NCBI RefSeq assembly: GCF_000293885.2
Contig: NZ_CP010945.1
Coordinates: forward strand, 3,740,001-3,804,000
Direction: 5' to 3'
Length of the DNA stretch: 64,000 bases
Source: Pseudomonas fluorescens NCIMB 11764
Lineage (GTDB): Bacteria; Pseudomonadota; Gammaproteobacteria; Pseudomonadales; Pseudomonadaceae
Shown here: piece by piece, positions 1,174 through 16,466 of the stretch
Numbering within the stretch: the first letter of the stretch is position 1
Layout of the letters: each line of letters begins with the position of its first letter
Notes under the pieces: model-generated
Seen by the model: the letters and a program-made list of their open reading frames with translations, nothing else
Database searches by the model: none
Told to the model about the DNA's origin: nothing
Made by a program: the position numbers and the translations under genes

Positions 1174-2211
1174 TTAACCTGAAGTGAACAGCTGACGGAT
1201 CAGGTTCGGTGTACTACCGGTCCAGCGCTTGAACGAACGCCGGAAATTCGCCGCATCGTTAAAGCTCAAATACTCCGCGACTTCCTCGTTGCTGAACCCC
1301 TTGATCTGATACAGGTACAGCGCCACATGCTTGCGCACTCGATCCACCTGTTGCTGAAAACCGGTGTCGTGCTTTTGCAGTTTGCGTTTGAGCGTGGCGG
1401 GGCTCATGGCGAAGGCCTGAGCGGCTTGTTCCAGGCTCGGGGCTTGTCGTATATGGGTTTGCAGGTAGCGATAGAGGCAGTCGACGAAGCTTGAGGCAAA
1501 GCCCAGTTGTTCGATTTGTCCTTGGGCTTCCTGACGGGCGACCTGGCTGGCGGTGGCCGACGCGGCGGGCCAGGCGAGCGTGAGGTATTCCCGTGGGATG
1601 CGCATCAGGTCCAGTGGGCGGTTGAACTGGGTGTGCTCGCCCAGATGCACCCAGTATTGCTCGACGTAACGTGGCTCGGCATGGCTGAAGCTGCATTCCC
1701 ACGGCAGGCGTTGGCCGCTCTGTGAGCGGCTCATGGCGACGATGGAGGTCATGCTCGCTTCCAGCAGAAAACGCCATTGTTCGCCCGCGCCGCAACTGTC
1801 CAGCCAATAGAACCAGGCGTGCTTTTCATCCAGCACCAACCGCGGCGTTGCGAGCGGGCTGAGCAGCGCCTGTTGCTGCACCAGTGTGTCGAGTGCCTGG
1901 TGCAGGTTTTGTGCGTGGCGCAAGGCATGGCTGGCCGGTCCGTAATGCCCCGGCAGCAAGCGTTGGCCGAACAGGAAACTGCTGTCGTCGGCGTCCAGCA
2001 ACCGGCGGCTGTTGTTGATCAGCCCGAAAAATTGCTGGGGACTGAGGCGGGTCTGGCCGGCGAGGATGTCTTCATGAAACAGGCCGGTGCCACGCAGCAG
2101 GCGATGGCTATCGATATCCCGGGACAAGGCCAGATCAATCAAGGTCGCCGGTTGGTAATGCCCGGGAATGAAGCGGCTGTCGGTTTCATACCATGTGGTT
2201 TTCAGGGTCAT
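1174..2211 (-). CDS. AraC-family transcriptional regulator
   Basis: A 345-residue regulator with the layout of the arabinose-binding-domain AraC group: an N-terminal effector domain of about 190 residues and a C-terminal double helix-turn-helix at about residues 245-340. In the DNA-binding part the motifs FAMSPATLKRKLQKHDTGF and VAEYLSFNDAANFRRSFKRWTGSTP are typical of the family. It starts 9 bases after the stop of the GGDEF-domain gene at 2221-3135, so the two form an operon transcribed away from the phytase cluster. The effector and targets are unknown. The related OruR/ArgR-like regulators of pseudomonads act on nearby catabolic genes, but nothing here identifies the target. Confidence 0.88.
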   Translation of the reverse strand: MTLKTTWYETDSRFIPGHYQPATLIDLALSRDIDSHRLLRGTGLFHEDILAGQTRLSPQQFFGLINNSRRLLDADDSSFLFGQRLLPGHYGPASHALRHAQNLHQALDTLVQQQALLSPLATPRLVLDEKHAWFYWLDSCGAGEQWRFLLEASMTSIVAMSRSQSGQRLPWECSFSHAEPRYVEQYWVHLGEHTQFNRPLDLMRIPREYLTLAWPAASATASQVARQEAQGQIEQLGFASSFVDCLYRYLQTHIRQAPSLEQAAQAFAMSPATLKRKLQKHDTGFQQQVDRVRKHVALYLYQIKGFSNEEVAEYLSFNDAANFRRSFKRWTGSTPNLIRQLFTSG

Positions 2212-2220
2212 GACCGCGCC

Positions 2221-3135
2221 TCAGGCCGTTTTTGCCAACGGCTGCCTGGCCCGTGCCAGCGCCAGGTTAAGGCGTTTGAGCAGGGGATCCGGAGCCTCGT
2301 TGACCGCCATGACCACGGCGGTACTGGCCGACAACTGCAGGCGCTCGCCGTGTTGCCGGGTTTTGTGTGCCAAGCCCTGAACCGCCTGTTCCAGCTCCAG
2401 CGCCAGCAGCCGTGCCTGGCTCTCGCCGGTGTTGGGGAGCAGCACCACGAAGCGGTCGCCGGCCAGTCGGCAGAGCAAGTCCTGCCGCCGCAGATTGAGC
2501 AGCAACAAATGGCTGAGCGCCTGCAATACGGCGTCGCCTTCGGCATGGCCGAACGTCTGGTTGATGGCCGTGAAGTTATCGACATCCAGCGCCAGCAGTG
2601 ACAGCGGCTGCTGTTGCCGCTGACTCTCTTCAAGGCTTTCGGTCAGTTGTCGCTTGAGGTAGTCGGCGCCGCCCAGTGGCGTGAGTTTGTCGAACAACCG
2701 GTGCTCGCGGAACAGCTTTTCACGCTTCTCCATTTGCGCGCTGATCGCCAGTTGCTCGCGGTGCCAGTGATAGATGCCGAGGGTCAGCAGAATCATGCCC
2801 ACCGGCATCGGTCCGGATTCCAGCCAGTGGTCCCAGGTGATGCTGTCGGGCAGGCGGATGAACTCGTCGAGGCTGTCGATCCACCAGGAGAAAAAGATGC
2901 CGCTCAAGCCGAGCGCCAGGTAATTGGTGACGCGACCGGCCGGGCGACTCTTGAGTACCAGCCCCAACCAGACCAGCGCCAGCAGCGCCGAGCCACCTTC
3001 GCCGACGATGTCCAGCCAGACCCATTCGCTGATGCTTTTCAACTCGCCGCACGCCAGGTGCAACAGCAATCCCGCGTTCGCCGCCAACAGCAGCAGTGCA
3101 AGTTTCCAACGATGGGGTTTGAGCACTGAGAACAT
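2221..3135 (-). CDS. Membrane-anchored degenerate GGDEF-domain protein
   Basis: 304 residues. About four hydrophobic segments fill residues 11-125 and anchor the protein in the inner membrane. A linker helix (about 130-150) follows, then a GGDEF-fold domain. The fold is supported by LALDVDNFTAINQTFGHAEGD at about 181-201, the usual metal/substrate loop. The signature is AGDRF (residues 225-229) instead of GG(D/E)EF. The third-position Asp remains, but the first Gly and the fourth-position Glu are replaced. Diguanylate cyclase activity is therefore doubtful, and a GTP- or c-di-GMP-sensing role is possible. It is the first gene of an operon with the AraC regulator downstream. Confidence 0.82.
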   Translation of the reverse strand: MFSVLKPHRWKLALLLLAANAGLLLHLACGELKSISEWVWLDIVGEGGSALLALVWLGLVLKSRPAGRVTNYLALGLSGIFFSWWIDSLDEFIRLPDSITWDHWLESGPMPVGMILLTLGIYHWHREQLAISAQMEKREKLFREHRLFDKLTPLGGADYLKRQLTESLEESQRQQQPLSLLALDVDNFTAINQTFGHAEGDAVLQALSHLLLLNLRRQDLLCRLAGDRFVVLLPNTGESQARLLALELEQAVQGLAHKTRQHGERLQLSASTAVVMAVNEAPDPLLKRLNLALARARQPLAKTA

Positions 3136-3261
3136 GGCCGTGATCCTTTGGCAAAGAGGCGATGCGCGTCAGCACAGCAGATGTTTGTGACAGTGGGGTG
3201 ACTGGGGTGAAAGGTCGAATCAGCTCATGGTGCAGCGGTTTTTTTCTGCCTGGCGATGACC

Positions 3262-3372
3262 TGTGGCGAGGGCGCTTGCTCCCGTTCGGTCGCGCAGCGG
3301 CCGCCGTTAGATTCACTGCGTGTTTGATAGGGGAGCGCTCGCACTCCAACGGGGGTAACCCCCCTCGCCACA
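3262..3372. repeat. Long inverted-repeat (REP-like) element
   Basis: Ends are TGTGGCGAGGGCGC and the opposite-sense CCCCCTCGCCACA, with an internal arm pair CTCCCGTTCGG / CCAACGGGGG. The same TGTGGCGAGGG end recurs at 6138, 47210, 48804 and 60333, so it is a family of interspersed palindromes typical of fluorescens-group genomes. It lies in the 416-base gap between the GGDEF gene and the receptor gene. Its presence argues against an upstream extension of the receptor reading frame. Confidence 0.75.
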
Positions 3373-3459
3373 GGATTAGCGCCAGACTCAGGTCATTTGA
3401 GCTCATTAACCAGCCTGAAGCCTGGCAAAACCCCGGTTTACAGCGTCTCCCGCCAACCC

Positions 3460-3477
3460 CTGTCACAGAACCGTCAT
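3460..3477 (+). promoter_or_regulatory. Candidate Pho box before the TonB-dependent receptor
   Basis: CTGTCAC-AGAA-CCGTCAT is two 7-base half-sites separated by 4 bases (11-base period), matching the PhoB consensus CTGTCAT-N4-CTGTCAT at 12 of 14 half-site positions. It lies 75 bases before the proposed receptor start at 3552. A weak -10-like TAGCTT follows at about 3490. This predicts induction of the receptor and phytase by phosphate limitation. Confidence 0.68.
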
Positions 3478-3551
3478 CCCCCGAACCTAGCTTGCCCTCC
3501 CAGTTGCCGGGCCACTTGCCTGGCGTTATCGGACTCTTGGGGGAGGACACC

Positions 3552-6080
3552 ATGTACCAGCGCAGCAGCACTGCCGGGCTCGTCAGCTTCACGCTCACCG
3601 CATTGGCCATGGCAATGGCCAGCGAACGCTTGAGCGCTGCCGAAACCACCGCGAACACGGAACACGTCGAAGTGGTGGGGCAAGCGGCAAGCATCGACCA
3701 GGCGCTCAAGGAACAACGCAACGCCGACAGCATCAAGAGCGTGGTGCATGCGGACGGCGTGGCGCAGCTGCCGGACGAAAACGTCGCCGAAGCCGTGCAG
3801 CGGTTGCCGGGAGTCAGCGTCGAGCGCGATCAGGGCGAAGGGCGGTTTGTCAGCGTGCGCGGCCTCGGTCCGGACCTCAACAGCGTGACCATCAACGGCA
3901 CGCTCGTACCGTCGCCGGAAAGCGAGCGCCGCGCTGTAGCCCTCGATGTGTTGCCCTCGGAACTGGTGCAGTCGTTATCGGTGATCAAGACCCTGACCCC
4001 GGACATGGACGCTAACTCCCTGGGCGGCACCGTCGACGTCAAAAGCCTCTCGGCGTTCGATCACAAAGGCCTGTTCTACACCGGCAGCAGCGAAGCCAGT
4101 TATGACAAAAACACCCACCAGACCAGCCCGAAATTTTCCGGCGCCATCAGTGACCGTTTCAGCCTCGGCGACGGCATCGACAATTTCGGTGTGGCCGCCG
4201 CGCTGAGCTGGCAGAAGCGCGATTTCGGTTCGGACAACGTCGAAACCGGCGGTGCCTGGGATTTCGAGCAAGGCGCCCGTCTCGAAGAGTTCGAGCAACG
4301 CGACTACGACATCAGCCGCGAACGCGCCGGCGGTGGTCTTAACTTCGACTACAAGCCCGATGACCTCAGCAGCTATTACCTGCGCACCCTCTACAGCCGT
4401 TACAAGGACAGCGAAACACGCAACGCCGCGGCCTTCGAATTTGCCGACCCGCAAGCTGCGGGCGAGTTGGGCGACGCCGAAGGCTCGCGCAAACTCAAAC
4501 AACGCGAAGAGACCCAGGAAATTCAATCCTACGTCCTGGGCGGCGAACGCATGTTCGGCCTCTGGACACTCAGCGGCCAGGCTGGCTACAGCCGCTCCGG
4601 CGAAGACAGCCCGGGTCACATTGCCAACGCTGCGTTCACCGGCATTGATGACTTTGCCGACAGCGGTTACTACGACAAGGACAAACCACGGCCGATCATT
4701 GGCCAGGCCTTCTACGATCCGGCCAATTTCAGCCTCGACAAGGTCGAGTGGGAAAAGCAGAAAACCACCGACACCGAGAAAAACCTGCGCCTGGACCTGG
4801 CCCGGGATTACGACTTCAAAGGCTACGCGTCCCAGGTCAAATTCGGCGGCAAGGTCAGTCGGCGCAACAAGGACAACGACCTCGACGCCTGGGTCTATGA
4901 GGATTTCGACGGCCTGGGTTTCAGCGACGATCAGCTCAACCTGTCGCATTTCACCAAAGGCAACGTCGACTATCGCCTCGGCCAGTTCGGCCCGGGGATC
5001 AGCGGCAGTGCGATCAAGCAGTTGATCGGCGGCCTCAACCAGGCGGACTTCTATGACGAAGTCGAATCGCGGGTCAACGACTTCAAGATCAGCGAAGACA
5101 TCAACGCCGGCTACCTGATGAACACGATCGATATCGACGACTGGCGGTTCATCGCCGGCCTGCGCTACGAAGGCACCGAGTTCGAAGCCAAGGGCACCGG
5201 CGTGACCGATGGCGCGTTCACTTCCACCGACACCCAGCGCAAATATCACCACTGGCTGCCGGGCCTGCATGCGCGCTATCAACTGGACAAAAACACCCAG
5301 GTTCGCGCCGCGTGGACCAAATCCGTGGTGCGCCCGACTTTCGGTCAACTGGCGCCAGGGTTTGTCATCGACGATGACGAAGCCACGTTCGGCAACCCGG
5401 AACTCAAACCGCTGGAGTCGAGCAATCTTGACTTGGGCATCGAGCATTACATGGGCCGCGCCGGCACCGTCTCGGCGTTCGTGTTCTACAAGGACATCAA
5501 GAATTTCGTCTACAACACCGACCTGGCCGGCACGGGTGCCTGGGTCGATTTCTCCGAAGCCCACACCTTTGCCAACGGCGACAGCGCCAAGCTCTATGGC
5601 CTGGAACTGGCTTATTCGCAGAAATTCGATTGGTTGCCGGCGCCCTGGAACGGCCTGCTGATTGGCGCCAACAGCACCTTCAGCCGTTCGGATGCCGAGA
5701 TCAAGGGCTTCGACGCCGCCAGTGGCATCAACCGCAAGCGCAGCATCGATTTACCCAACCAGTCCGACACGGTCGGCAACCTGATGCTCGGTTGGGAAGA
5801 CGACAAGCTGAGCCTGCGCCTGTCGGCCAACTACAAGTCGGATTACCTCTTTGAACTGGCGTCCATCAACGACAAGGCCCACGACCTGCACGTCGATGCC
5901 CAGACCTTTATCGACTTCAGCGCCCGTTACTCGCTGACCAAAAGCCTGCAAGTCAGCTTCGAGGCGCAGAACCTCACCGACGAGCCGTATTTCGTCTACA
6001 CCGGCCACCGCGCCTACAACGGCCAGTACGAAGAATACGGCCCGACCTACAAGCTCGGCCTGACCTTCACCCACTTTTGA
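3552..6080 (+). CDS. TonB-dependent outer-membrane receptor, probable phytate or inositol-phosphate uptake
   Basis: 842 residues from the ATG at 3552, which has a strong ribosome binding site (GGGGGAGGACACC) and is followed by a signal peptide (residues 1-30, ending LSAA). The open frame continues upstream to 3162, but that part contains a repeat and the Pho box. A TonB-box-like EVVG is at about 40-43. The plug domain (about 55-180) carries LPDENVAEAVQRLPGVSVER and VRGLGPDLNSVTING, in the style of TonB-dependent receptors for sugars and organic polymers rather than siderophores. The rest is a beta-barrel ending in an aromatic residue (GLTFTHF). The phytase gene follows, then ExbB-ExbD-TonB. 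Beta-propeller phytases are known to be encoded next to such receptors, so import of phytate or its products is inferred. Confidence 0.88.
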   Translation: MYQRSSTAGLVSFTLTALAMAMASERLSAAETTANTEHVEVVGQAASIDQALKEQRNADSIKSVVHADGVAQLPDENVAEAVQRLPGVSVERDQGEGRFVSVRGLGPDLNSVTINGTLVPSPESERRAVALDVLPSELVQSLSVIKTLTPDMDANSLGGTVDVKSLSAFDHKGLFYTGSSEASYDKNTHQTSPKFSGAISDRFSLGDGIDNFGVAAALSWQKRDFGSDNVETGGAWDFEQGARLEEFEQRDYDISRERAGGGLNFDYKPDDLSSYYLRTLYSRYKDSETRNAAAFEFADPQAAGELGDAEGSRKLKQREETQEIQSYVLGGERMFGLWTLSGQAGYSRSGEDSPGHIANAAFTGIDDFADSGYYDKDKPRPIIGQAFYDPANFSLDKVEWEKQKTTDTEKNLRLDLARDYDFKGYASQVKFGGKVSRRNKDNDLDAWVYEDFDGLGFSDDQLNLSHFTKGNVDYRLGQFGPGISGSAIKQLIGGLNQADFYDEVESRVNDFKISEDINAGYLMNTIDIDDWRFIAGLRYEGTEFEAKGTGVTDGAFTSTDTQRKYHHWLPGLHARYQLDKNTQVRAAWTKSVVRPTFGQLAPGFVIDDDEATFGNPELKPLESSNLDLGIEHYMGRAGTVSAFVFYKDIKNFVYNTDLAGTGAWVDFSEAHTFANGDSAKLYGLELAYSQKFDWLPAPWNGLLIGANSTFSRSDAEIKGFDAASGINRKRSIDLPNQSDTVGNLMLGWEDDKLSLRLSANYKSDYLFELASINDKAHDLHVDAQTFIDFSARYSLTKSLQVSFEAQNLTDEPYFVYTGHRAYNGQYEEYGPTYKLGLTFTHF

Positions 6081-6133
6081 GCCCCGATGCGGCCTCCGTA
6101 GGAGCGTAATGCTGTTTGCTTGGCGAACACTGA

Positions 6134-6264
6134 CAACTGTGGCGAGGGGATTTATCCCCGTTCGACTGCGAAGCGGTCGTCGATCCGGACAATTCAGTCT
6201 GTTTGGCCGGACGCTGGGGGCCACTTCGCGACCCAACGGGGATAAATCCCCTCGCCACAATTGT
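6134..6264. repeat. Long inverted-repeat (REP-like) element
   Basis: The left end ACAACTGTGGCGAGGGGATT pairs with the right end AATCCCCTCGCCACAATTGT around a centre of about 90 bases. It belongs to the TGTGGCGAGGG family seen elsewhere in this window. It sits between the receptor and the phytase and could form a very stable stem in the transcript, so it may set different expression of the two genes. A further short repeat remnant (GTAGGAGCGAGGCTCGCC) follows at about 6296-6313. Confidence 0.78.
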
Positions 6265-6358
6265 CGGTGCCCACACTTAAGTGAACAGCATTGCCGTAGG
6301 AGCGAGGCTCGCCCGCGATGGCCGTTACACGATTCCACGACAAGGACTTTGCCTGTTC

Positions 6359-8272
6359 ATGAGTATTTCGTTTCTATCCAAGCGCCATCTTCTGGCCGCA
6401 TTGATCAGCCTGACCGCCGGCCAGGTGCTGGCGGCGGTACCCAGCCTGACACTCAAGCCATGGGGCGCCAATCTGTCGGTTGATGCGGTGGCGTTCCTGC
6501 CCGCCAATGTTGGCGCCGAACGCCTGGCGGCCAGCGAGCAAGACGGTTTGCTGCTGCTCGATGCACAGGGCCGGGAACTGGCGCGTTTACCAGGATCGTT
6601 CAGTGGCGTGGACAGCCGCGCAGCCGGCCGGCAAGTGTTGGTCGCAAGCCTGGACAACAGCCGTCAGCAGGCATTTTTGGTCAGTCTCAATCCGGACAAA
6701 CGCAGTTGGGGCCAGCCGGTGTATCTGCCGACGCGGGATTACCCGGTGAACGGCCTGTGCCTGTATCGCGACGAGGCCAGCAACCTGTTCCTGTTTCTGG
6801 TGGGCGAGGAGGGCAAGGGCGAGCAATGGCTGGTGGGTAACGACGCGGCGCTCAACCCGCAACCACAACGGGTGCGCGGTCTGCCGCTGCCACCGTCGGC
6901 CACGGATTGTCAGGTCGACGACGGCGCCAATCAGTTGGTGGTCAACGAAGAGAATGTGGGGTGGTGGGTGTATCCGGCGCATCCCGAAGCCGAGGTCAGC
7001 CGCACGCCGGTGGCTATGCGCGAACCGTTCGGCACGATCAAAAAAACCGCTGGCGCCATGGCTTTGGTGCCCGGTGGCCTCGTCGCGCTGGACCCGAAAG
7101 CCGCGCAATTGCATGTCTACCAGCAGCAGGGCGAACACTGGTCGGCCCAGGCGACCTTGGCGCTGCCAGGTTTGATAGAACCGGAAAACCTCGCCCTGCG
7201 CTCGACCGACAAAGGCCTGCAGGTTCTTCTGCGCGACGATGACGACGGCCGTCTGTATGAAGGCGAACTGAACTGGCAGCCGACACCGGTGCCCTTGGCG
7301 CCGGTGCTGCCGAACGTTAAAGCGCTCAGCCAGAGTGATCCGGTCGGCCGTCAGGGCGATGCGGCGGACGATCCGGCGATCTGGATTCACCCGCAGCAAC
7401 CGTCGCTGAGCCGGGTGCTGGGCACCAATAAAAAGCAGGGGTTGCTGGCGTATGACCTGCAAGGCAAGTTGCTGCAGGAGTTACCGGTCGGGCGCCTGAA
7501 CAACGTCGACCTGAGGCCGAATTTCAAACTCGGCCCACAGACTGTCGACCTCGCCGTCGCCAGCAATCGCGATCACAACAGCCTCAGTCTGTTCAGCATC
7601 GACCGTCTTAGCGGCGAACTGCGTGAAGCCGGCGAGATCCCCACGCCGCTCAAGGAAATCTACGGCATCTGCCTGTTCCAGCCTGCCAGTGGCGAGCTTT
7701 ACGCCATCGCCAACGGCAAGGACGGCACGTTCCTGCAATACCGCCTGAGTGCGCCGAACGGCACGGTAAAAGGTGAGTTGGTGCGCCAGTTCAAGGTCGA
7801 CAGCCAACCCGAAGGCTGCGTGGCCGACGACCAACGTCAACGGCTGTTTCTCGGTGAAGAAGATGTCGGCGTCTGGGCGGTGGATGCCCGCGCCGATCAG
7901 CCGGCGACACTGACCAGCGTGATCAAGGTCGGCCCACAACTGCAGGCCGACGTTGAAGGTCTGGCGCTGTATCAAAGCGAGGCTCGCGATTATCTGGTGA
8001 TCTCCAGCCAGGGTAACGACAGCTACCTGGTGCTGGACGCCGAGCCGCCGTTCGCCTCGCGGGGCGCTTTTCGCGTCGGCCTGAACGCCGCGCTCGGCAT
8101 TGATGGCGCCTCGGAAACCGATGGCCTTGAAGTCACTTCGGTGAACCTCGGCGGACCTTGGAGCCAAGGCCTGCTGGTGGTGCAGGACGGCCGCAAGCGC
8201 ATGCCCGAGCAGACGCAAAACTTCAAATTCGTGCCTTGGACCGAGGTCACTCAAGCCCTGAAGCTGCCTTGA
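6359..8272 (+). CDS. Secreted beta-propeller phytase (3-phytase), two-propeller form
   Basis: 637 residues from the ATG at 6359, with a signal peptide (about 1-22, ending QVLA). The C-terminal propeller (about residues 320-630) has the beta-propeller phytase signatures in order: DDPAIWIHP, TNKKQGLLAYDL, GRLNNVDLRPNF, ASNRDHNSLSLF, YGICLF, EGCVADD, DVEGLALY, SETDGLEV. These include the acidic residues that bind calcium and calcium-phytate. The first 300 residues look like a second, degenerate propeller without these motifs, as in known tandem phytases. The enzyme would hydrolyse phytate in the periplasm or outside the cell. The ribosome binding site is distant and weak (ACAAGGAC). The gene lies between the receptor and the ExbBD-TonB genes. 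Confidence 0.9.
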   Translation: MSISFLSKRHLLAALISLTAGQVLAAVPSLTLKPWGANLSVDAVAFLPANVGAERLAASEQDGLLLLDAQGRELARLPGSFSGVDSRAAGRQVLVASLDNSRQQAFLVSLNPDKRSWGQPVYLPTRDYPVNGLCLYRDEASNLFLFLVGEEGKGEQWLVGNDAALNPQPQRVRGLPLPPSATDCQVDDGANQLVVNEENVGWWVYPAHPEAEVSRTPVAMREPFGTIKKTAGAMALVPGGLVALDPKAAQLHVYQQQGEHWSAQATLALPGLIEPENLALRSTDKGLQVLLRDDDDGRLYEGELNWQPTPVPLAPVLPNVKALSQSDPVGRQGDAADDPAIWIHPQQPSLSRVLGTNKKQGLLAYDLQGKLLQELPVGRLNNVDLRPNFKLGPQTVDLAVASNRDHNSLSLFSIDRLSGELREAGEIPTPLKEIYGICLFQPASGELYAIANGKDGTFLQYRLSAPNGTVKGELVRQFKVDSQPEGCVADDQRQRLFLGEEDVGVWAVDARADQPATLTSVIKVGPQLQADVEGLALYQSEARDYLVISSQGNDSYLVLDAEPPFASRGAFRVGLNAALGIDGASETDGLEVTSVNLGGPWSQGLLVVQDGRKRMPEQTQNFKFVPWTEVTQALKLP

Positions 8273-8279
8273 TCCGGGC

Positions 8280-8308
8280 CGGTCATCAACCTGTCATCCC
8301 ACTTTCAT
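8280..8308 (+). promoter_or_regulatory. Candidate triple Pho box before exbB
   Basis: Three half-sites with an exact 11-base period: CGGTCAT-CAAC-CTGTCAT-CCCA-CTTTCAT. The middle one matches the PhoB half-site CTGTCAT perfectly and each flanking one differs from it at two positions. A -10-like AATAGCT follows at 8311-8317. It starts only 7 bases after the phytase stop and lies 62 bases before exbB, so exbB-exbD-tonB appear to have their own phosphate-responsive promoter. Confidence 0.75.
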
Positions 8309-8369
8309 CCAATAGCTCAACGGCCGTCGCGCATCGACGGCCCGAGCGCTTCAGACAAGGAGTTTCACC

Positions 8370-9071
8370 ATGCAGGCCACGCTCGAACACATGACGATCT
8401 GGGGGCTGATCAGCGACGCCAGTCTGTTGGTCAAGGCGGTCATGCTCACCCTGTTGCTGGCGTCGTTGCTCAGTTGGTACCTGATCATCCAGCGCGGTCG
8501 CGTGTTGCAGCAGCGCGAGCGGCAGATGAATGCTTTCGTGCAGCAGTTTCGCGGCGCTTCGGATCTGCAGCCGCTGTACCGGGAAACGGCAGGTAGCGAG
8601 AGCGGTGTGGAGCCGATTTTTCATGCAGGGCTTCGCGAATTCAGTCATCTCAATCAGCGTTCGGGCAACCCCGCCGACGTGGTGCTCGAAGGTGTGGAGC
8701 GCGCGTTGTATGTGGCGATCAGCGAACAGGAAGTGCAGCTGGAGAAAGGCTTGCAGTTTCTCGCCACCGTCGGCTCGGTCAGCCCTTACATCGGTCTGTT
8801 CGGCACAGTGTGGGGGATCATGAATTCCTTCCTCGGCTTGTCTCAGGTCCAGCAAGCGACGCTGTCGACCGTGGCGCCCGGCATCGCCGAAGCGCTGATC
8901 GCCACGGCCATCGGTTTGTTTGCGGCGATTCCGGCGGTGATTGCCTACAACCGGTTTTCCTCCCGCAGCCAGACCTTGCTCACCCGTTACTACGCCTTCG
9001 GCAATGAACTTCAGGTGCGTCTGCATCGCACATTGCACGGTGCGCCGTTGAACCTGGCCGCCGCAGCCTGA
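8370..9071 (+). CDS. exbB: ExbB/TolQ-family proton-channel protein
   Basis: 233 residues; ATG at 8370 with ribosome binding site ACAAGGAGTTTCACC. It has one membrane helix near the N terminus (about 18-40) and two in the C-terminal half (about 128-150 and 165-190), the usual ExbB/TolQ topology. The conserved channel segment (GLFGTVWGIMNSF and APGIAEALIATAIGLFAAIPAVIAYN) contains the polar residues that line the proton path. The N terminus is more like TolQ than classical ExbB, but the partner genes are exbD and tonB and no tol genes are nearby. With ExbD it would energise TonB for the receptor at 3552-6080. Confidence 0.9.
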   Translation: MQATLEHMTIWGLISDASLLVKAVMLTLLLASLLSWYLIIQRGRVLQQRERQMNAFVQQFRGASDLQPLYRETAGSESGVEPIFHAGLREFSHLNQRSGNPADVVLEGVERALYVAISEQEVQLEKGLQFLATVGSVSPYIGLFGTVWGIMNSFLGLSQVQQATLSTVAPGIAEALIATAIGLFAAIPAVIAYNRFSSRSQTLLTRYYAFGNELQVRLHRTLHGAPLNLAAAA

Positions 9072-9084
9072 GAGGAGCGTGAAG

Positions 9085-9531
9085 ATGCTGATCAAACCGC
9101 AACGCAAACACGGACCCAAGGCCGAAATGAACGTGGTGCCATACATCGACGTGATGTTGGTGCTGCTGGTGATTTTCATGGTCACGGCGCCGATGCTGAC
9201 CCAAGGTGTAAAGATCGAACTGCCCAAGGTTGCCAGTGAAGCCCTGGCCACTGACACGCGTCAGCAAATCCTCACGTTGTCGGTGAAGGCCGAGGGTGGT
9301 TACTACTGGAATGTCGGCGGTGAACTCGACACTCAACACCAGACCGACAGTGCGGTGAGCCTTGACGACATGCGGGCGAAAGTGGCGCAAATCGTCGCCG
9401 AGCGCCACGACACTCAGGTCTACATTCGCGCCGACAAGGACGCCGGTTATGGCAGCGTGGTCGCGGCCATGGCGGCGTTGCAGCAGGGCGGAGTCAGCAA
9501 CCTCGGGCTGGTGACCGAGGCCCCGCAATGA
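9085..9531 (+). CDS. exbD: ExbD/TolR-family energiser
   Basis: 148 residues. The ATG at 9085 is chosen because GAGGAG lies 7 bases before it; a GTG at 9079 would be only one base from that site. A single N-terminal membrane helix (about 18-38) carries VVPYIDVMLVLLVIFMVTAPM, with the essential Asp in PYIDVML. A periplasmic domain follows (VYIRADKDAGYGSVVAAMAAL). The gene starts 13 bases after exbB and its stop overlaps the tonB start (ATGA), so the three genes are one translationally coupled unit. Confidence 0.92.
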   Translation: MLIKPQRKHGPKAEMNVVPYIDVMLVLLVIFMVTAPMLTQGVKIELPKVASEALATDTRQQILTLSVKAEGGYYWNVGGELDTQHQTDSAVSLDDMRAKVAQIVAERHDTQVYIRADKDAGYGSVVAAMAALQQGGVSNLGLVTEAPQ

Positions 9532-10334
9532 CGGCGATGATCATGCACAGTCCTTCGATGACGTTGCTGCCCGGTGCTCGCAGCGGCTTCTGGCAGAACA
9601 GTCTGGCGGCGAGCCTGGCGGTGGCGTTGCACGCGGCCGTCCTCGCGTTGCTGGTGCACGGTTGGTCGCCGCAGAAGCCGCCCGTCGAACCGCCTTCTGT
9701 GCTGAGAACCCAACTGGTGATGTTGCCGCCGGCGCCGCAACCTGTGGCACCCGAACCGGCACCGGCGTTGGTCGAGCCATCACCGCCCGAACCGATTGCT
9801 CCGGCTCCCGTCAAACCCGCCATCGACCCACAGATCCAGGCGCAGAAACTCGAACAAGCTGCGTTGGCGCGCAAACGGGTCGAAGACAAAAAGCGCGATC
9901 TTCAGGCCGAGCACCAACGCCAGCGCCTTGAGTCGGAAAAACGCACTCGCGAGGCTGAACAACAACGCCTCGCCGAGCAGCAAGTGCAACAGGCGCATCA
10001 AGCCGAACAGGCCCGGTTGAACGCTGAACGCGCTCGCCAGCAAGCGGCCCAGGTCGCCGCCAACAGTCGTCAGTACCTGCCCTTGAGCAAGGAAGCGCCG
10101 GACTACCCGCAACGGGCGCTGGACAAGAACATCGAAGGCGATTGCACCGTGGAATATACGGTCAACCCCCAAGGCAAGGTTGAGAATCCCAAGGTGCTCG
10201 ACGGCTGTCATCCGCTGTTCATGCGTCCGTCGTTGGCGGCGGCCAACACCTTTCGTTATCAGCCCAAAGTCGTCGACGGCCAGGTGGTTTCGGTGCCGGC
10301 GGTGCGCAATACCTTTCATTATCGGATCAAGTGA
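9528..10334 (+). CDS. tonB: TonB protein with long charged coiled-coil linker
   Basis: 268 residues. An N-terminal membrane anchor (about 26-45) is followed by a Pro-rich stretch (about 50-98) and then an unusual 85-residue Gln/Arg/Glu/Ala-rich helical segment (about 100-185) of the kind found in TolA. The C-terminal TonB domain (about 186-268) has YPQRALDKNIEGDCTVEYTVNPQGKV, the YP motif and a disulphide-capable cysteine pair (GDC and DGC). It would transmit proton-motive force to the receptor. The start overlaps exbD by 4 bases. A hairpin of a REP-like remnant (10354-10369) lies 20 bases after the stop and may act as terminator. Confidence 0.92.
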   Translation: MTAMIMHSPSMTLLPGARSGFWQNSLAASLAVALHAAVLALLVHGWSPQKPPVEPPSVLRTQLVMLPPAPQPVAPEPAPALVEPSPPEPIAPAPVKPAIDPQIQAQKLEQAALARKRVEDKKRDLQAEHQRQRLESEKRTREAEQQRLAEQQVQQAHQAEQARLNAERARQQAAQVAANSRQYLPLSKEAPDYPQRALDKNIEGDCTVEYTVNPQGKVENPKVLDGCHPLFMRPSLAAANTFRYQPKVVDGQVVSVPAVRNTFHYRIK

Positions 10335-10353
10335 CTCGGTCAGTGGTGGTGAC

Positions 10354-10376
10354 GAGGGCGCGGGCCCTCGCCACAG
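10354..10376. repeat. REP-like hairpin after tonB
   Basis: GAGGGC-GCG-GGCCCTC followed by GCCACAGG is a short, partial copy of the TGTGGCGAGGG palindrome family. It lies between the convergent ends of tonB (10334) and the DUF6124 gene (10384) and can act as a bidirectional stop for both transcripts. Confidence 0.55.
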
Positions 10377-10383
10377 GACAGGA

Positions 10384-10671
10384 CTACTCGATTGGATCGA
10401 GTTGATCCAGCGCCCGGTTCACGTTGAGTTCGCCCAGCATGATCACTTGGGCGATGCCCAGCAGGGTATTGCGACTCGGCCCGAGCGTACGGTCCGCCAG
10501 ATCCATGGTCATGACATGGGCCGAGGCCAGTGATTCGCAAGCGTGTCCCAGCAGGTCTTCGGTGTTGATGTGTGGATCGAGGGTGTACATCGTGCTCGGT
10601 GTTCGTGGGGTGGCGTGGATGTCGGCAGCGGAGGGGGTAGCTTCCGGTGGGTTGGGTGTTGGTTTGATCAT
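10384..10671 (-). CDS. DUF6124 family protein
   Basis: 95 residues. It resembles the small Pseudomonas DUF6124 proteins: N-terminal K-PTPNPPE, a disordered Pro/Thr/Ser stretch (about 4-30), then two helices with LLGHACESLASAHVM and LGIAQVIMLGELNVNRALDQLD. The function of the family is unknown. The start ATG at 10671 has a GGGAG site 8 bases upstream. The leader on this strand carries the multi-hairpin element described at 10713-10875, so expression may be controlled by RNA structure. No membrane segment or signal peptide is visible. Confidence 0.78.
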   Translation of the reverse strand: MIKPTPNPPEATPSAADIHATPRTPSTMYTLDPHINTEDLLGHACESLASAHVMTMDLADRTLGPSRNTLLGIAQVIMLGELNVNRALDQLDPIE

Positions 10672-10712
10672 TGATGAAACTCCCGGGATGTAAATGAGGA
10701 GCCATCACCCCT

Positions 10713-11020: not shown

Positions 11021-13204
11021 TTAACAGAACGAATCGATATCCAGCGTGTGCGGTGCACCGATGGTGTGCCCATAGATCGAAGCCGTCAGCGCGTCCCCCT
11101 CCGGGTCTTCCGGCGCCATGGCGAACGGATCCTGGACCTTGTTTTCGGGATGCGCCAGCCAGCGATCGACGTTTTTCCTCAGATCTTCGGGTTGTTCTGA
11201 CAGCGATCCGTAAAGCGCTTGTGCGCTAATCCTCTGAGGATGAATGCTTTTCAGGCGTGCGACGGTGGTCTCAATCCTGCTCTTTTCAAGGACGAGTGCG
11301 CGAATGTTGTTCTCCTGTGTGCGAGCGTAAGCCTCCGAACGTCCTCTTAAATCACGTTCTATCGCCCGCAGGTCAGTGGTGGCCTGTGCCAGTGAATTCT
11401 TGACCCACTCAAACTCGCTATCAGTGATCCGCGTACGTTTCTCTTCGTGCGCCTGCTTCCATCGCAGTAAAACCGCCCAGCACGCGGGAACGTAGCCACC
11501 GGTCATTGAATGATTCCCTGCCTGGAATATCTGCGCCAGCAATGGCGGCCGGTCCGGCAGCCCGTTTTTCTGCTGAATGGCCAAGGTGCACGCCGCATGT
11601 TGGGTGATGGTGTCGCAACCGGGTTCCCACATGAACGCGGACTTTTTCCCACGTTCAAAATCCACCGGCATGAAGTGCTGCAACTTGCCATGGTGATCGT
11701 AGGGCTCACCCGTCCAGTTCGTGATGCCCGTAAAAAACACCGACATCCCGACCGGCACGTTAGCAAGCGTCAAAGCCAACCCCGTCGCGAAGACACCGGG
11801 CTTGGTGTCCATCCAGGTGCCCGGCACGCTCGGCACCGGGTCGTTGTGATTGACGACGCGGTGATGCACCAAGTCCTTCGCGCCTGCAACGAAGTTGGCA
11901 TCGCCCGCGCGGGGGGCGCCGTAGGTGTAGAGCTGGAGGGTGTAGCCCTCAGTTCTGCGACGCAGCATTTCCGAAAGTATCAAGGCCACCGCACCACCGA
12001 GACTGTGGCCGCAAATGATGAGCTTCTGCCCGACATAGAATTTTTCAAGATAGTTAACAACAAATTCGTAGGCTTTCTGCGCAGCTTCGTAAAAACCTCG
12101 GTGCACTTTGCTGTCTGTGGCTTCAAACGGCACTTGGAGTGCATCGGCATCGCGTAGTCCATCCGCGATAAGCTCGTAGGTGCCACGTACCGCGATCAAA
12201 ATCAGTTCGTCATTGTGGGTAATGAAAGCCTGGGTATCGGTGGCTCCTTGCTTGGCTCTATCGTCGAGAAAGTGAAGTTTTGCGGGGTGTTCCTGCTCGT
12301 CATTTCGTTCAGGGTCGTTTACTTCATAAAGGTTCGGATCAAACGGCACGATTTCAAAACGTTTGGAGTACGGCACATCCTCATACAGTGGGTAGAAGAC
12401 TTTGTTTTGCGCCGCATCGACACGCCATAGCTCATCAGACTTTGCCAGCGCATCGCCGAACCAATTCCCAACGCTGGGCTGTTTCGGGAAGGTGACGGTT
12501 CGCGATTTCACAGGGTGTTTTTCGGGCTGCTGGCCAAATGGGCAATAACTTAAGGTTGCCATCAGCGCCAATTGATAAAGGTTCAATGCGCAGAATTCGG
12601 GGCTGGTCGACAACATCGGCCGAAGCGCCCGCATAGGCCGCACTTCCAATACGTTGTTTTTTTGCGGTATCAGAGCGACGCCAAATTCACCGTGTTTGCC
12701 CATGAGCTTGGCCGTGCCCTCACGGTGATGATAATGGCGATAAACCTCTGGAGGTAGATGCGCGATCTCCATGACTAGATGCCGCACTTCCACTTGGAAG
12801 AATGCGTCGGCGCAGGCTTGTGCAGGATTCATTTTGGTACGGGTTGAGTCTTGATTTAGATAACGGGTTCCTTCGGCTCGTACTTGAAGTTCGGTTATCT
12901 CGAGCGGGTAGTGTGGTCGTTTTCTGAGGTCTTTATAGAGTTGATTAGCACCTTGGTATTTCTCATCAAACGTCAGCGAAACAGGCCCTGCAAAGTGGTT
13001 ATCAACTTTGGCAGCACCGTTAGCGTCAAGATATCCCGTGTATTTCTTCCCCTCTGAATCGGTAACAACGTAAGCCAATCCTGCGTAAGGCTCGCCCGAG
13101 CCGCTCTCATCAACCAACTGAAAACTACTCCACTTACCTTGAGCCGGGCAGGCAAGCACGCGATTACTCAATCGTGACTCCATCTCTTTTTCAAATGATG
13201 TCAT
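11021..13204 (-). CDS. Type VI secretion lipase effector (class 3 lipase, Tle2-like)
   Basis: 727 residues. The N-terminal 120 residues form a small beta-rich domain (EPYAGLAYVVTDSEGKKYTG). An alpha/beta hydrolase core of the class 3 lipase type follows (about 325-470) with FITHNDELILIAVRGT, the nucleophile elbow GHSLGGA (Ser401) and a likely acid in NHNDPVPSVP (Asp455). His residues at about 504-510 could complete the triad. The C-terminal 190 residues are largely helical. No signal peptide is present, as expected for a VgrG-delivered toxin. It is the last gene of the vgrG operon, 12 bases after an immunity-like lipoprotein whose stop overlaps its ribosome binding site (AAGGAG). Phospholipase action in the target periplasm is inferred from the family. 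Confidence 0.85.
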   Translation of the reverse strand: MTSFEKEMESRLSNRVLACPAQGKWSSFQLVDESGSGEPYAGLAYVVTDSEGKKYTGYLDANGAAKVDNHFAGPVSLTFDEKYQGANQLYKDLRKRPHYPLEITELQVRAEGTRYLNQDSTRTKMNPAQACADAFFQVEVRHLVMEIAHLPPEVYRHYHHREGTAKLMGKHGEFGVALIPQKNNVLEVRPMRALRPMLSTSPEFCALNLYQLALMATLSYCPFGQQPEKHPVKSRTVTFPKQPSVGNWFGDALAKSDELWRVDAAQNKVFYPLYEDVPYSKRFEIVPFDPNLYEVNDPERNDEQEHPAKLHFLDDRAKQGATDTQAFITHNDELILIAVRGTYELIADGLRDADALQVPFEATDSKVHRGFYEAAQKAYEFVVNYLEKFYVGQKLIICGHSLGGAVALILSEMLRRRTEGYTLQLYTYGAPRAGDANFVAGAKDLVHHRVVNHNDPVPSVPGTWMDTKPGVFATGLALTLANVPVGMSVFFTGITNWTGEPYDHHGKLQHFMPVDFERGKKSAFMWEPGCDTITQHAACTLAIQQKNGLPDRPPLLAQIFQAGNHSMTGGYVPACWAVLLRWKQAHEEKRTRITDSEFEWVKNSLAQATTDLRAIERDLRGRSEAYARTQENNIRALVLEKSRIETTVARLKSIHPQRISAQALYGSLSEQPEDLRKNVDRWLAHPENKVQDPFAMAPEDPEGDALTASIYGHTIGAPHTLDIDSFC

Positions 13205-13216
13205 GTCAAAATCTCC

Positions 13217-14011
13217 TTATTCCGTGCAGCCGGGGTAAATGGTGCAGATGCGCCCATCCACCATTTTGAAGGTGCTGAAATCGGTGTAGTTACCATCGCA
13301 ATAAGCACGTTCGTCTTCGAAGCCTTTGCCTAGGCAACGCTTCCAGCCACCGGGCACTGCCACCCATGTGTCGCCCCAGCCGGGTTTTTCCTCCTTGGCT
13401 AACATGATCTTCATTTTCACGGTCTTGCCTGGCAGTTGATCGAGGGTGTAAGCCGAAAATGGACGGCCACGTTTACGCTCTCCCTTTTCATCAGCTGCTT
13501 TGCAGTCGAGGATTTTTCTGAGGATGCGCGGCTTGCCTGAAGTGCGGAACAGCCACTGACAATGACCGTAAAAGACGCTTTCACCCGTTTCACTAAAGGT
13601 ACCTTTGGACTGTTCCTTCAGTTCATGGCGAATAACAACCATGGCGCTTTCCCTACCGAAGTCGCCTCGATCTTTTCCATACGCCGAGTTGATCTCCAAC
13701 TCGATGCGCCTAACGACCAACGGGCAGCCCTTGCGCGTAATGCGGATCTCTACTTCAGAATCAGGTTTGTATTCTTTTCGCCACTGGCTATTGAAAACCG
13801 GCGCCAAGTTGTCTTTCGTTTCGACAGTGCAGGTTTCACCTTCGGCGGGTTCGTAGTAAACCGCAGCGACGTATGCAAAATCGGGCGGTAAATCGGCGGT
13901 AAAGGTGAATGTATTCGGCTGACTCTTGGCACAGCCGGTGATTAATGTGATGCAGCAAGCCAACGCAGCAAATTTCAGCGTCAACTTTTGCTGTGAAGAA
14001 AAAATACGCAT
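13217..14011 (-). CDS. Lipoprotein, probable lipase immunity protein (copy A)
   Basis: 264 residues from the ATG at 14011 (ribosome binding site AAGGACATTAATCAC, overlapping the previous stop). The signal peptide ends in the lipobox ITGC (Cys at about residue 27), so the mature protein is a periplasm-facing lipoprotein. The body shares nearly every residue with copy B, including FTFTADLPPDFAYVAAVYY, GDFGRESAMVVIRHELKEQ and the C-terminal GRICTIYPGCTE. It lies directly before the lipase effector gene. Periplasmic lipoproteins are the known immunity type for type VI lipases. Binding to this effector is inferred from position only. Confidence 0.8.
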   Translation of the reverse strand: MRIFSSQQKLTLKFAALACCITLITGCAKSQPNTFTFTADLPPDFAYVAAVYYEPAEGETCTVETKDNLAPVFNSQWRKEYKPDSEVEIRITRKGCPLVVRRIELEINSAYGKDRGDFGRESAMVVIRHELKEQSKGTFSETGESVFYGHCQWLFRTSGKPRILRKILDCKAADEKGERKRGRPFSAYTLDQLPGKTVKMKIMLAKEEKPGWGDTWVAVPGGWKRCLGKGFEDERAYCDGNYTDFSTFKMVDGRICTIYPGCTE

Positions 14012-14024
14012 GTGATTAATGTCC

Positions 14025-14819
14025 TTATTCCGTGCAGCCGGGATAAATGGTGCAGATGCGGCCATCTGGCATTTTGAAAGTGCTGAAATCAGAGTGATTT
14101 CCAAAACAGAAAGCATCCTGATCTTCAAAATTTTTCCCCATGCAACGCTTCCAGCCACCGGGCACTTCGACCCAGGTGTCACCCCAGCCAGGTCTTTCCT
14201 TCGTGGCCAACGTGATCTTCATCTTCACGGTCTTCCCAGGTAGCTGATCAAGGGTGTACGCCGCAAATGGGCGCCCACGCCCTAGTTGGCCCTGTGCGTC
14301 GGTCGTTTTGCAGTCGAGGATTTTAACGATGCGTCGCTGAGCACCCGCAGTGCGAAACAGCCACTGGCACTGACCGTAAAAGACACTTTCACCCGCTTCA
14401 CTAAAAATGCCTTTGGATTGCTCCTTCAGTTCATGGCGAATAACAACCATGGCGCTTTCCCTTCCGAAGTCGCCTCGATCTTTTCCATACGCCGAGTTGA
14501 TCTCCAGTTCGATGCGCCTAACGACCAACGGGCAGCCCTTGCGCGTTATATGAATCTCTATTTCGGAATCGGGTTTGTATTCTTTTCGCCATTGGTCATT
14601 GAAAACCGGCGCCAAGTTGTCCTTTGTTGCAACAGTGCAGGCCTCACCTTCGGCGGGTACGTAGTAAACCGCTGCGACGTATGCAAAATCAGGCGGTAAA
14701 TCGGCGGTGAAGGTGAATGTGTTCGGCTGACTCTTGGCACAGCCGGTGATTAATGTGATGCAGCAAGCCAACGGAGCAAATTTCAGCGTTGACTTCGCCG
14801 GTGAAGAAAAAATCGGCAT
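14025..14819 (-). CDS. Lipoprotein, probable lipase immunity protein (copy B)
   Basis: 264 residues from the ATG at 14819, the same length as copy A. The lipobox ITGC, the spacing to the next gene (13 bases) and the intergenic sequence GGACATTAATCACATG are also the same, which shows a recent tandem duplication. Differences from copy A are concentrated in the region corresponding to 13450-13560 (TAGAQRRIVKILDCKTTDAQGQ against TSGKPRILRKILDC) and near the C terminus (DQDAFCFGNHSDFSTF against DERAYCDGNYTDFSTF). Longer frames to 14936 exist but would run into copy C and lack a signal peptide at the right place. Confidence 0.8.
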   Translation of the reverse strand: MPIFSSPAKSTLKFAPLACCITLITGCAKSQPNTFTFTADLPPDFAYVAAVYYVPAEGEACTVATKDNLAPVFNDQWRKEYKPDSEIEIHITRKGCPLVVRRIELEINSAYGKDRGDFGRESAMVVIRHELKEQSKGIFSEAGESVFYGQCQWLFRTAGAQRRIVKILDCKTTDAQGQLGRGRPFAAYTLDQLPGKTVKMKITLATKERPGWGDTWVEVPGGWKRCMGKNFEDQDAFCFGNHSDFSTFKMPDGRICTIYPGCTE

Positions 14820-14832
14820 GTGATTAATGTCC

Positions 14833-15615
14833 TTATTCTGTGCAGCCCGGGTAAATGGTGCATTGCCTTCCATCCGGCATCCGGAAACTGCTGAAGTCTT
14901 TGAAGTTGCCGAAGCAAAAGGCGTACTGGTCTTCAAAGTTGTCTCCCATACAGCGCTTCCAACCTTTGGGAAGTTTTACCCAGGTATCGCCCATATAAGG
15001 TCTTTCCTCGCCAGCCAACGTAATCTTCATCTTCACGGTCTTACCCGGTAGCTGATCGAGGCTGTACCCCGAAACTGGGTGGCCTCGTTCCGGCTCTCCT
15101 CGGGCGTTCGCTGCTTTGCAATCGAGAATTTTGACAATGCGTCGCTGCGCACCCGAAGTGCGAAACAGCCACTGACAATGGCCGTAGAAAGTGCTTTCGC
15201 CGGCGTCACTGAACGTGCCTTTGTATTGTTCCTCCAGATCATCGCGGATGATGACCATTGCGCTGTCCCCACCGAAGTCCCCCCTATGTGTCCAATAGGA
15301 AGCGTTGATATCCAGCCTGATACGCCTGATACGCCTGATCACCAGCGGACAGCCACTGACTGTTCGATACATGGAAATTTCAGAATTCGGCGTGTAACTT
15401 TCACGCCACTTCATGTTGTACCCGACGGCCGTATTCCTTCCCCCCGGCACGGTGCAGGTTTCTCCTTTGGCCGGCACATACTCGGCGATGGCCTTGTAGG
15501 CAAAATCGGGCGGTAAATCGGCAGTGAAGGTGAATGTGTCCGGCTGCCCGGTAGAGCAACCCGTGACCAACCCAAGACAACAAGCCACAACTGCGATTTC
15601 TGATTTCCATTTCAT
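14833..15615 (-). CDS. Lipoprotein, probable lipase immunity protein (copy C, divergent)
   Basis: 260 residues. The start at 15615 is chosen because ATGAAATGG overlaps the stop of the DUF4123 gene by four bases (ATGA) and is followed by a lipoprotein signal ending VTGC. The same fold-defining segments as copies A and B are present (DTFTFTADLPPDFAYKA, GDFGGDSAMVIIRDDLEEQ, FYGHCQWLFRTSGAQRRIVKILDC, CTIYPGCTE), but overall it is clearly more divergent, with an extra IRR duplication (IRRIRRIRLDIN) in the middle. First of the three paralogues in the operon and translationally coupled to the adaptor. Confidence 0.8.
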   Translation of the reverse strand: MKWKSEIAVVACCLGLVTGCSTGQPDTFTFTADLPPDFAYKAIAEYVPAKGETCTVPGGRNTAVGYNMKWRESYTPNSEISMYRTVSGCPLVIRRIRRIRLDINASYWTHRGDFGGDSAMVIIRDDLEEQYKGTFSDAGESTFYGHCQWLFRTSGAQRRIVKILDCKAANARGEPERGHPVSGYSLDQLPGKTVKMKITLAGEERPYMGDTWVKLPKGWKRCMGDNFEDQYAFCFGNFKDFSSFRMPDGRQCTIYPGCTE

Positions 15616-16466
15616 ATCGGCACATCCCCCCGCCAAAACCCCACCAACTGCCGCACCCGCTCAAAGTGCTCCACCGGACTCTCATCACCCCGCACCTCCC
15701 ACTCCGGGGGCAAAGTAAAACCCGGCGCTTGCAAACTCTGAATCAACAGAAATTCCAGTTGCTCTGGCTCCAACCAGCCCCACCTGTCTGCCAGCGCTAA
15801 ACGCTCACGCAACCACGCATCAGGTTCATGTTCTTCGGCGAGATTGACGTAGGCCTCAACATGCTCGGCCAGCAAATAACGATGGGCGTTGAGCCGGCGA
15901 ATTTCCGAGGCCTGTGGCTGGGGCAGGGGTGTGCGCAACCAGAGCGGCTGGTCCGGCACGGGGTACGTTCCGGGGATAGGATTGTGAGCTGTGTTCCAGG
16001 CAGCGCCGTCCCAGTAGCAGACGCTGATCGCCGGCCCAAGAAAGGCTGGATATTCTTCAGGCCGCAGGTGTTTCAGCGCGCGACTCAACACTCGGTTGTC
16101 GTGAAAGCGATACAGCGCCTGATAGGGACGCGTCCCGACAATCAATCGCTGTTGCCAGTGATTGACCAACCCGCGTAACGCACCTTTTTCGACGCTCGCG
16201 AGCCAGCCCCAGTTGCGTTCGGGATGATCCAGCAGTTCGTCGAGGCGCCGGTCGCCGGACTGTTCCAGGGTGAAGATGAACGGACCGGCATCGGCCAGGT
16301 TCGCGAGGGTCGTTGCGTTGTAGACGCTCAGGTAGTGGTCGTGTCCGCTGGACTTCAACAACAGCTGACGGGTTTCACGCTCGTTCTGCGAGTCCAGCAC
16401 CAGGCACAGTTCGCGGCCCAGGCGGCGCTGTTCGTTCATCCATTGGCGGGGGAGTGTGTGGGTCAT
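15612..16466 (-). CDS. DUF4123 type VI effector adaptor (Tap/TEC-like)
   Basis: 284 residues. The DUF4123 fold is suggested by the N-terminal LCLVLDSQNERETRQLLL and the central FIFTLEQSGDRRLDELLDHPERNWGWLASVEKGALRGLVNHWQQRL..., including the RFHDNRVL block. DUF4123 proteins are cytoplasmic chaperone-adaptors that load a specific effector on its VgrG without being secreted. It overlaps vgrG upstream (ATGA, 4 bases) and the first lipoprotein gene downstream (4 bases), so it is made in register with both. The cargo is most likely the lipase at 11021-13204, the only toxin-like product in the operon. Confidence 0.85.
   Translation of the reverse strand: MTHTLPRQWMNEQRRLGRELCLVLDSQNERETRQLLLKSSGHDHYLSVYNATTLANLADAGPFIFTLEQSGDRRLDELLDHPERNWGWLASVEKGALRGLVNHWQQRLIVGTRPYQALYRFHDNRVLSRALKHLRPEEYPAFLGPAISVCYWDGAAWNTAHNPIPGTYPVPDQPLWLRTPLPQPQASEIRRLNAHRYLLAEHVEAYVNLAEEHEPDAWLRERLALADRWGWLEPEQLEFLLIQSLQAPGFTLPPEWEVRGDESPVEHFERVRQLVGFWRGDVPI

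Follow-up and report, generated by a model that had tools for sequence, protein, structure and literature searches.

A Pho-boxed Pseudomonas gene cluster joining a TonB-dependent receptor and a beta-propeller phytase to a TolQR-type motor and TonB-type protein

Introduction

Among the stores of organic phosphorus in some soils, phytate is a major one. Gram-negative bacteria might break it down outside the cell or import it, and which of these they do bears on who gains the phosphate that is released. This question is raised by a locus of Pseudomonas fluorescens NCIMB 11764 at which the genes for a TonB-dependent receptor, a phytase, a two-protein motor and a TonB-type force transducer stand in a row. 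The locus lies within a 64,000-nucleotide (nt) stretch of the 7.0-Mb, single-contig genome (NZ_CP010945.1, positions 3,740,001 to 3,804,000), which we call the window, with positions counted from its first letter. An earlier note on this DNA had read the genes as a complete phytate module with its own energiser, importing phytate or partly dephosphorylated inositol phosphates. Here we examine how far the composition, conservation and promoters of the cluster agree with import; with a private, Pho-boxed motor beside the receptor, import can be probed directly by removing genes.

Results

The cluster is a fixed unit in Pseudomonas

Five complete genes follow one another on the + strand, and both coordinates and family models confirm the consecutive, same-strand arrangement described earlier: a TonB-dependent receptor of the TonB-Xanth-Caul subfamily (3552..6080), a two-part beta-propeller phytase (6359..8272), a TolQ-type (8370..9071) and a TolR-type motor protein (9079..9531), and a TonB-type force transducer (9528..10334). 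The gaps measure 278 nt between receptor and phytase, 97 nt between phytase and motor, and 7 nt between the two motor genes, followed by a 4-nt overlap with the TonB-type gene. Beyond the genes listed in the earlier note, the module includes a divergent pair on the − strand, which sets its left edge at 1174: a degenerate-GGDEF protein with four long N-terminal helices (2221..3135; PF00990) and, 9 nt after it on the same strand, an AraC-type regulator (1174..2211; Arabinose_bd and HTH_18 by Pfam).

Synteny in other Pseudomonas had been proposed as a check on the module. Our sample comprised 199 Pseudomonas genomes drawn evenly across the genus, one per species (related species are not independent), and 56 of them carried the phytase. 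The receptor, the phytase, the two motor genes and the TonB gene were syntenic, with identical order and strand, in all 55 of the other phytase loci; the divergent GGDEF and AraC genes were also there in 53 of these, and the remaining two loci end at contig ends. A second set took the best 80 of 432 relatives, all of them named loci and overlapping the other locus set in species. It contained all seven genes in 74 cases, while five of the other six were cut by contig ends and one had a partial receptor match. The closest named relatives of the phytase are P. fluorescens isolates and their kin. Because gene order is kept across Pseudomonas loci, we conclude that the cluster is a fixed unit.

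Orthologues of the receptor were found in 58 of the 199 genomes, the two beyond the 56 phytase carriers being assemblies broken inside the phytase. The TonB orthologue (E ≤ 1e-30) occurred in 57, namely all 56 phytase genomes and one with an assembly break inside the phytase. Four more genomes gave short TonB matches, C-terminal only and at 33% identity, and no TonB match was found in genome G076 (about 650 contigs, 93% complete), in which a contig end interrupts the phytase. The dedicated energiser claimed earlier was thus supported, both by adjacency in 55/55 loci and by a TonB orthologue confined to phytase genomes (one with its phytase cut by a contig end).

Several irregular loci were also seen. 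At two of them (L094 and L095, in genomes G056 and G094) the GGDEF gene remains with no receptor or phytase match, and at L095 short TonB-like and AraC pieces lie beside it, resembling a lost module. The locus of P. fluorescens PS662 is present on two contigs with equal identity, reflecting either duplication or redundant assembly. Five loci (L053, L067, L069, L088 and L090) have about 1.4 kb extra separating the GGDEF gene from the receptor.

The motor is of the TolQR type

The motor pair had previously been labelled ExbB–ExbD, and this label was not upheld. The first protein passed the TolQ model TIGR02796 (257.2 bits over a cut-off of 221) and the second the TolR model TIGR02801 (142.2 over 127.3), while both fell short of the ExbB model (168.7 under 206.2) and of the ExbD models (81.1 under 216, 75.6 under 152.95 and 62.6 under 123.45), respectively. 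The genome itself encodes a TolQ and a TolR, to which the two proteins are 60% and 58% identical, against 37% for the next closest such pair; by our reading of the genes, a tolQRA set lies elsewhere in the genome. Named relatives are called TolQ in public sources. In a tree of 46 rows, the phytase-linked proteins (16) and the genome's own TolQ lay on one side of a branch (support 100/99) and 29 TolQ of other families on the other; this sample holds one Pseudomonas TolQ, and the TolQ of the nearest order-level relatives is absent from it. Two very long ExbB rows and the long row of locus L086 had been removed. An earlier tree that retained the two ExbB rows was disturbed by them, one falling inside the phytase-linked group. 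In that tree, the placement of phytase-linked proteins together with the genome's own TolQ was not rejected (p-AU 0.39).

The motor aspartate motif was present in 56/56 loci and a GTVWG motif in 55/56. The third protein matched PF03544 (55.2 bits over 24.6) and also exceeded the cut-off of TIGR01352, and its transmembrane segment carries a histidine in 55/56. Within the window, neither tolB nor pal lies beside the motor, and the third gene encodes a TonB_C protein, not TolA. We also considered a TolA–TonB chimera: the TonB-type protein has a coiled central part that matches TolA below the cut-off (31 bits under 59.45), but direct comparison with the genome's TolA gave no significant match (best E 0.48). 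Profile scores, identities and tree establish the family and kinship of the motor at the level of sequence, and its coupling to TonB is presumed; most simply, tolQR would have been duplicated within the Pseudomonas lineage and the copy coupled to a protein of TonB type.

Pho boxes lie at three promoters

A scan with the Pho consensus CTGTCAT (PMC4415409) returned 11 sites with at most one mismatch in the whole genome, compared with 3 for a reversed-pattern control, and four of the 11 lie at this locus, across three promoters. Seven sites in the 64-kb window scored at least 11/14, of which four are the locus boxes. The PhoB-like sites that had been reported at both halves of the module were recovered, namely CTGTCACAGAACCGTCAT in the receptor promoter (3460..3477, +) and, in the promoter of the motor operon, a triple Pho repeat CGGTCATCAACCTGTCATCCCACTTTCAT that forms two overlapping boxes (8280..8308, +). 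To these we add a third box, CAGTCACCCCACTGTCAC, in the GGDEF–AraC promoter (3187..3204, −).

Across loci, the receptor box scored at least 11/14 in 47/56 and at least 10 in 54/56, and a TANNNT element lay exactly 10 nt past it in 54 of the 55 loci where the box reaches at least 10 (in the window, the −10 element TAGCTT at 3488..3493, +). The motor box reached at least 11/14 in 29/56 loci, and the GGDEF box, sought across orthologous regions, in 28/54 (at least 10 in 40/54). As background, the same loci, promoters included, yielded 22400 random windows, of which 146 scored at least 11/14; the loci are again related and not independent. P. simiae has both the receptor and the motor box. One more Pho-like 18-mer (10205-10222, 11/14) lies inside the TonB-type gene and is probably there by chance.

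No box of at least 11/14 precedes the phytase in any of the 56 loci. The phytase therefore probably relies on the receptor promoter, from which its transcription would cross a REP-like hairpin in this strain (6128..6269; 49-nt arms, 86% complementary). Regulation by iron found no support: the best Fur-like match in each gap (10/19) is no better than the mean of random 416-nt windows (10.4), and no site stands out. The Pho boxes, in turn, exceed what chance would give, and control by the Pho system is supported at sequence level, and PhoB would be the protein acting at these boxes.

The phytase and the receptor

The phytase is the sole PF02333 match in the whole genome, scoring 284 bits across residues 320-634. 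This C-terminal propeller aligns over its full length with the solved phytases 3amr and 1poo and retains the conserved motifs, and calcium-dependent hydrolysis of phytate is predicted from the family. The N-terminal half gave a sub-threshold PF02333 match (E 0.0067). Of the earlier description as a secreted two-propeller phytase, the catalytic propeller stands and the N-terminal half is weak; what speaks for "secreted" is a Sec-type signal (recognised by eye), and in many relatives the phytase is a predicted lipoprotein. A strict lipobox was present in 12/56 Pseudomonas orthologues, rising to 16/56 with a looser test, and in 24/36 loci outside Pseudomonadaceae, a count that omits ten loci (four with unclear or cut starts and six from Pseudomonadaceae). 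Based on this spread of lipoboxes inside and outside Pseudomonas, the ancestral phytase was probably membrane-anchored. The predicted lipobox phytases suggest a cell-bound enzyme. Together with the private motor for the neighbouring receptor, the pattern would speak for capture with hydrolysis at the cell rather than digestion by an enzyme set free in the medium. In a transposon screen of P. simiae PICF7, 22 mutants had a weakened or absent phytase halo, but for the two null mutants that were selected the site of insertion could not be mapped (PMC7926765).

The receptor scored 642.5 bits against TIGR01782 (cut-off 310), matched the Plug and barrel Pfams, and remained below the siderophore-receptor model (88.3 under 223.5). 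A TonB-box-like motif, E.V.VVG, was found in 49/55 receptors, and no N-terminal STN signalling domain was matched by Pfam or NCBIfam-type models. Its predicted structure (pLDDT 87, pTM 0.83) is confidently that of a TonB-dependent receptor, with neighbours including BtuB and FhuA. Many of the similar-fold structures among the matches listed are siderophore, heme and B12 receptors, and in each of two structure searches with the receptor, none of the 50 matches listed bears the name of a phytate transporter. From gene linkage, we infer that the ligand is a phosphorylated inositol.

A degenerate GGDEF protein accompanies an AraC regulator

In place of the diguanylate cyclase signature GG(D/E)EF, all 54 Pseudomonas orthologues of the GGDEF protein have AGDRF, preceded by five residues by an RxxD inhibitory site (I-site), also in 54/54. 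The pattern is similar in most distant orthologues, with RxxD lost in one (L189). In the structural model (pLDDT 86.8, pTM 0.54), the four long N-terminal helices may be read as membrane helices. Catalysis is doubtful, and binding of a nucleotide or of cyclic di-GMP (c-di-GMP) is plausible.

Distribution beyond Pseudomonas

PF02333 was present in 11/369 genomes of a class sample and in 43/398 of a phylum sample, both including the window genome. The loci fetched from outside Pseudomonas were of three kinds. Two loci from other Pseudomonadaceae genera (L186 and L187) have the full gene set. In eleven further loci, from other Gammaproteobacteria (L099, L100, L104 and L189-L196), the phytase has GGDEF and AraC genes nearby; ten of these loci also hold a receptor, and the motor–TonB trio is absent from all eleven. 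Most of the remaining loci consist of receptor and phytase alone. Outside Pseudomonadaceae, a receptor match near the phytase, on either strand, was counted by eye in 32/40 loci, and the trio was found in none of these 40 stretches of at most 18 kb (some shorter), judged with profiles from Pseudomonas genes that a distant ExbB could escape. Outside Pseudomonadaceae, 7/11 loci had a Pho site scoring at least 11 when the divergent promoters were scanned in stretches of about 1 kb that take in the ends of the coding regions. This three-kind distribution suggests that the motor is a lineage-specific addition, limited to Pseudomonadaceae as far as sampled, and that the GGDEF–AraC pair, which occurs beyond Pseudomonas without the motor, is the older companion of the phytase.

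Neighbouring features

A second hairpin, recognised as an inverted repeat, lies between the divergent promoters (3260..3374) and is of one family with that between receptor and phytase; we take both to be REP-like elements. No Rfam match to a structured RNA was obtained across 2900-10700. The gene after the TonB-type gene is a convergent DUF6124 gene. Further along, on the − strand (11021-16466), are genes for a Lipase_3 protein, three tandem related open reading frames of about 270-320 amino acids, and a DUF4123 protein, an arrangement that brings to mind a lipase of type VI secretion accompanied by multiple copies of its immunity gene.

Discussion

Taken together, we consider it fairly probable that the locus is a phosphate-starvation module for the uptake of phytate or its partly dephosphorylated products. 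Under low phosphate, PhoB would turn on the three promoters that serve receptor and phytase, motor and TonB, and the divergent GGDEF and AraC genes. The receptor would bind phosphorylated inositol at the cell surface and be opened by the TolQR-type proton motor acting through its own TonB protein. Phosphate would then be stripped by the propeller phytase, located at the outer membrane or inside it, and enter via ordinary phosphate transport. The degenerate GGDEF protein would sense GTP or c-di-GMP, with the AraC protein tuning expression to substrate. The best reading, partly supported, is thus that phytate or lower inositol phosphates are imported: of the import originally proposed, the dedicated energiser and Pho control at sequence level stand, and the carriage of inositol phosphates by the receptor is suggested by linkage.

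Several observations weigh against this reading. Of the seven other one-mismatch Pho sites in the genome, one lies between pstS and pstC and the rest beside no evident phosphate gene (names assigned by reading translations), so the strict Pho pattern alone is not specific. Conservation is weaker at the GGDEF and motor boxes than at the receptor box, and no −10 element of the TANNNT type was found at the GGDEF and motor promoters. For the phytases of SBW25 and DSM4166, the proteome study of Lidbury 2016 (PMC5082522) reported no evidence of PhoBR control; there the phoBR mutant was of P. putida BIRD-1 and SBW25 was followed by exoproteome, which a cell-bound or substrate-gated phytase could escape. 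The window phytase itself lacks a lipobox and might be released to the medium. Charge did not distinguish the receptor as one for phytate: 47 phytase-linked receptors, compared with 9 other receptors from one genome, showed 8/28 conserved basic and 15/37 conserved acidic positions as specific to them, which singles out no polyanion ligand. Lastly, the motor missed the stricter Tol models (PRK10801, 223.6 under 403; PRK11024, 81.3 under 162).

Among the alternatives, the one that survives best, unlikely though we judge it, is that the phytase acts outside the cell, phosphate enters via porins and Pst, and the receptor imports something else, such as a metal–phytate chelate for metal supply. A Sec-type signal with no lipobox in the window phytase would suit this, as would the Sec/SPI signal reported for another Pseudomonas phytase (PMC9369656), the chelation of metals by phytate (PMC9728340), and the siderophore, heme and B12 receptors among the listed structures of similar fold. 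A common fold is, however, uninformative on ligand; the best family is TonB-Xanth-Caul, with the siderophore model failed, and Pho boxes mark three promoters at a locus where no Fur-like site stands out. Somewhat more unlikely still, the trio could be a general extra TonB system that is a neighbour of the phytase only by position. It has its own Pho repeat, a Pho-induced general energiser would benefit any receptor, and the receptor and phytase of the other Gammaproteobacteria examined manage without it, but the trio adjoins the phytase in all 55 of the other Pseudomonas phytase loci examined, and among the 199 genomes its TonB orthologue occurs solely in phytase genomes (with the one cut phytase noted above). 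A role for the receptor in sensing phytate or in docking the enzyme at the surface, and not in transport, is improbable. Its conservation alongside the divergent regulators and the presence of receptor–lipoprotein complexes with other ligands (XusA-XusB, BtuB1-BtuG1) among the fold matches speak for such a role, but the receptor has no STN domain match and docking would not need a dedicated motor.

Returning to uptake of inositol phosphates, a bolder version can be offered tentatively, and we hold it to be distinctly less likely than the general one. The locus might be a self-contained inositol-phosphate importer for phosphate starvation, in which a division (Tol) motor, once duplicated, now drives a TonB arm dedicated to a single receptor, with a cell-bound propeller phytase as the receptor's enzymatic partner and a membrane c-di-GMP reader and AraC protein as gate. 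If true, such an importer would link phosphorus foraging to a surface lifestyle.

Comparison with known systems

The pairing of receptor and phytase is known, as in phyA–phuR of Xanthomonas. Citromicrobium and Flavobacterium (Fjoh_1367/1368) likewise have a TonB-dependent receptor adjoining a beta-propeller phytase, and in Flavobacterium both are induced by phosphate depletion (PMC3400609, PMC8115612). The phytase also has a precedent in the two-domain PSphy of Pseudomonas strain FB15, which has an extra N-terminal domain before its catalytic propeller; the account of PSphy (PMC9728340) deals with the enzyme and not with a receptor or motor. The receptor–phytase pairs outside Pseudomonadaceae differ from the Pseudomonas locus in lacking, within the 40 stretches, the motor–TonB trio.

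For the GGDEF protein, we presume the nearest kind to be degenerate GGDEF receptors of c-di-GMP such as PelD, with which it shares a non-canonical signature and a retained RxxD inhibitory site. From these it would be set apart by its helical N-terminal membrane part and its linkage to phytase and AraC genes.

The motor shares with the TolQR of Tol-Pal the passing of both TIGR models, the 60%/58% identity and the grouping with Pseudomonas TolQ; it is unlike Tol-Pal in its TonB-type partner in place of TolA, its lack of adjoining tolB and pal, its receptor linkage and its scores below PRK10801 and PRK11024. E. coli TolQ-TolR is able to activate TonB, a coupling described as laboratory cross-complementation (review, PMC11658791), and the phytase-linked motor looks like a natural re-use of a Tol motor to drive a TonB receptor. 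HasB, the heme TonB paralogue, is similarly a TonB paralogue for one uptake locus, but is described with ExbB (PMC9008036), whereas at the phytase locus the motor itself is a Tol paralogue. The available text of a 2025 force-transducer paper (PMC12204202) contains no word starting with "phyt", and among the matches listed, no open-licence title or abstract opening links a phytase to a TolQR-type motor or a GGDEF/AraC pair, although the subscription literature may differ. Thus, against the known receptor–phytase pair, what appears to be new at this locus is its private Tol-type motor, its third Pho-boxed promoter and its degenerate GGDEF–AraC pair.

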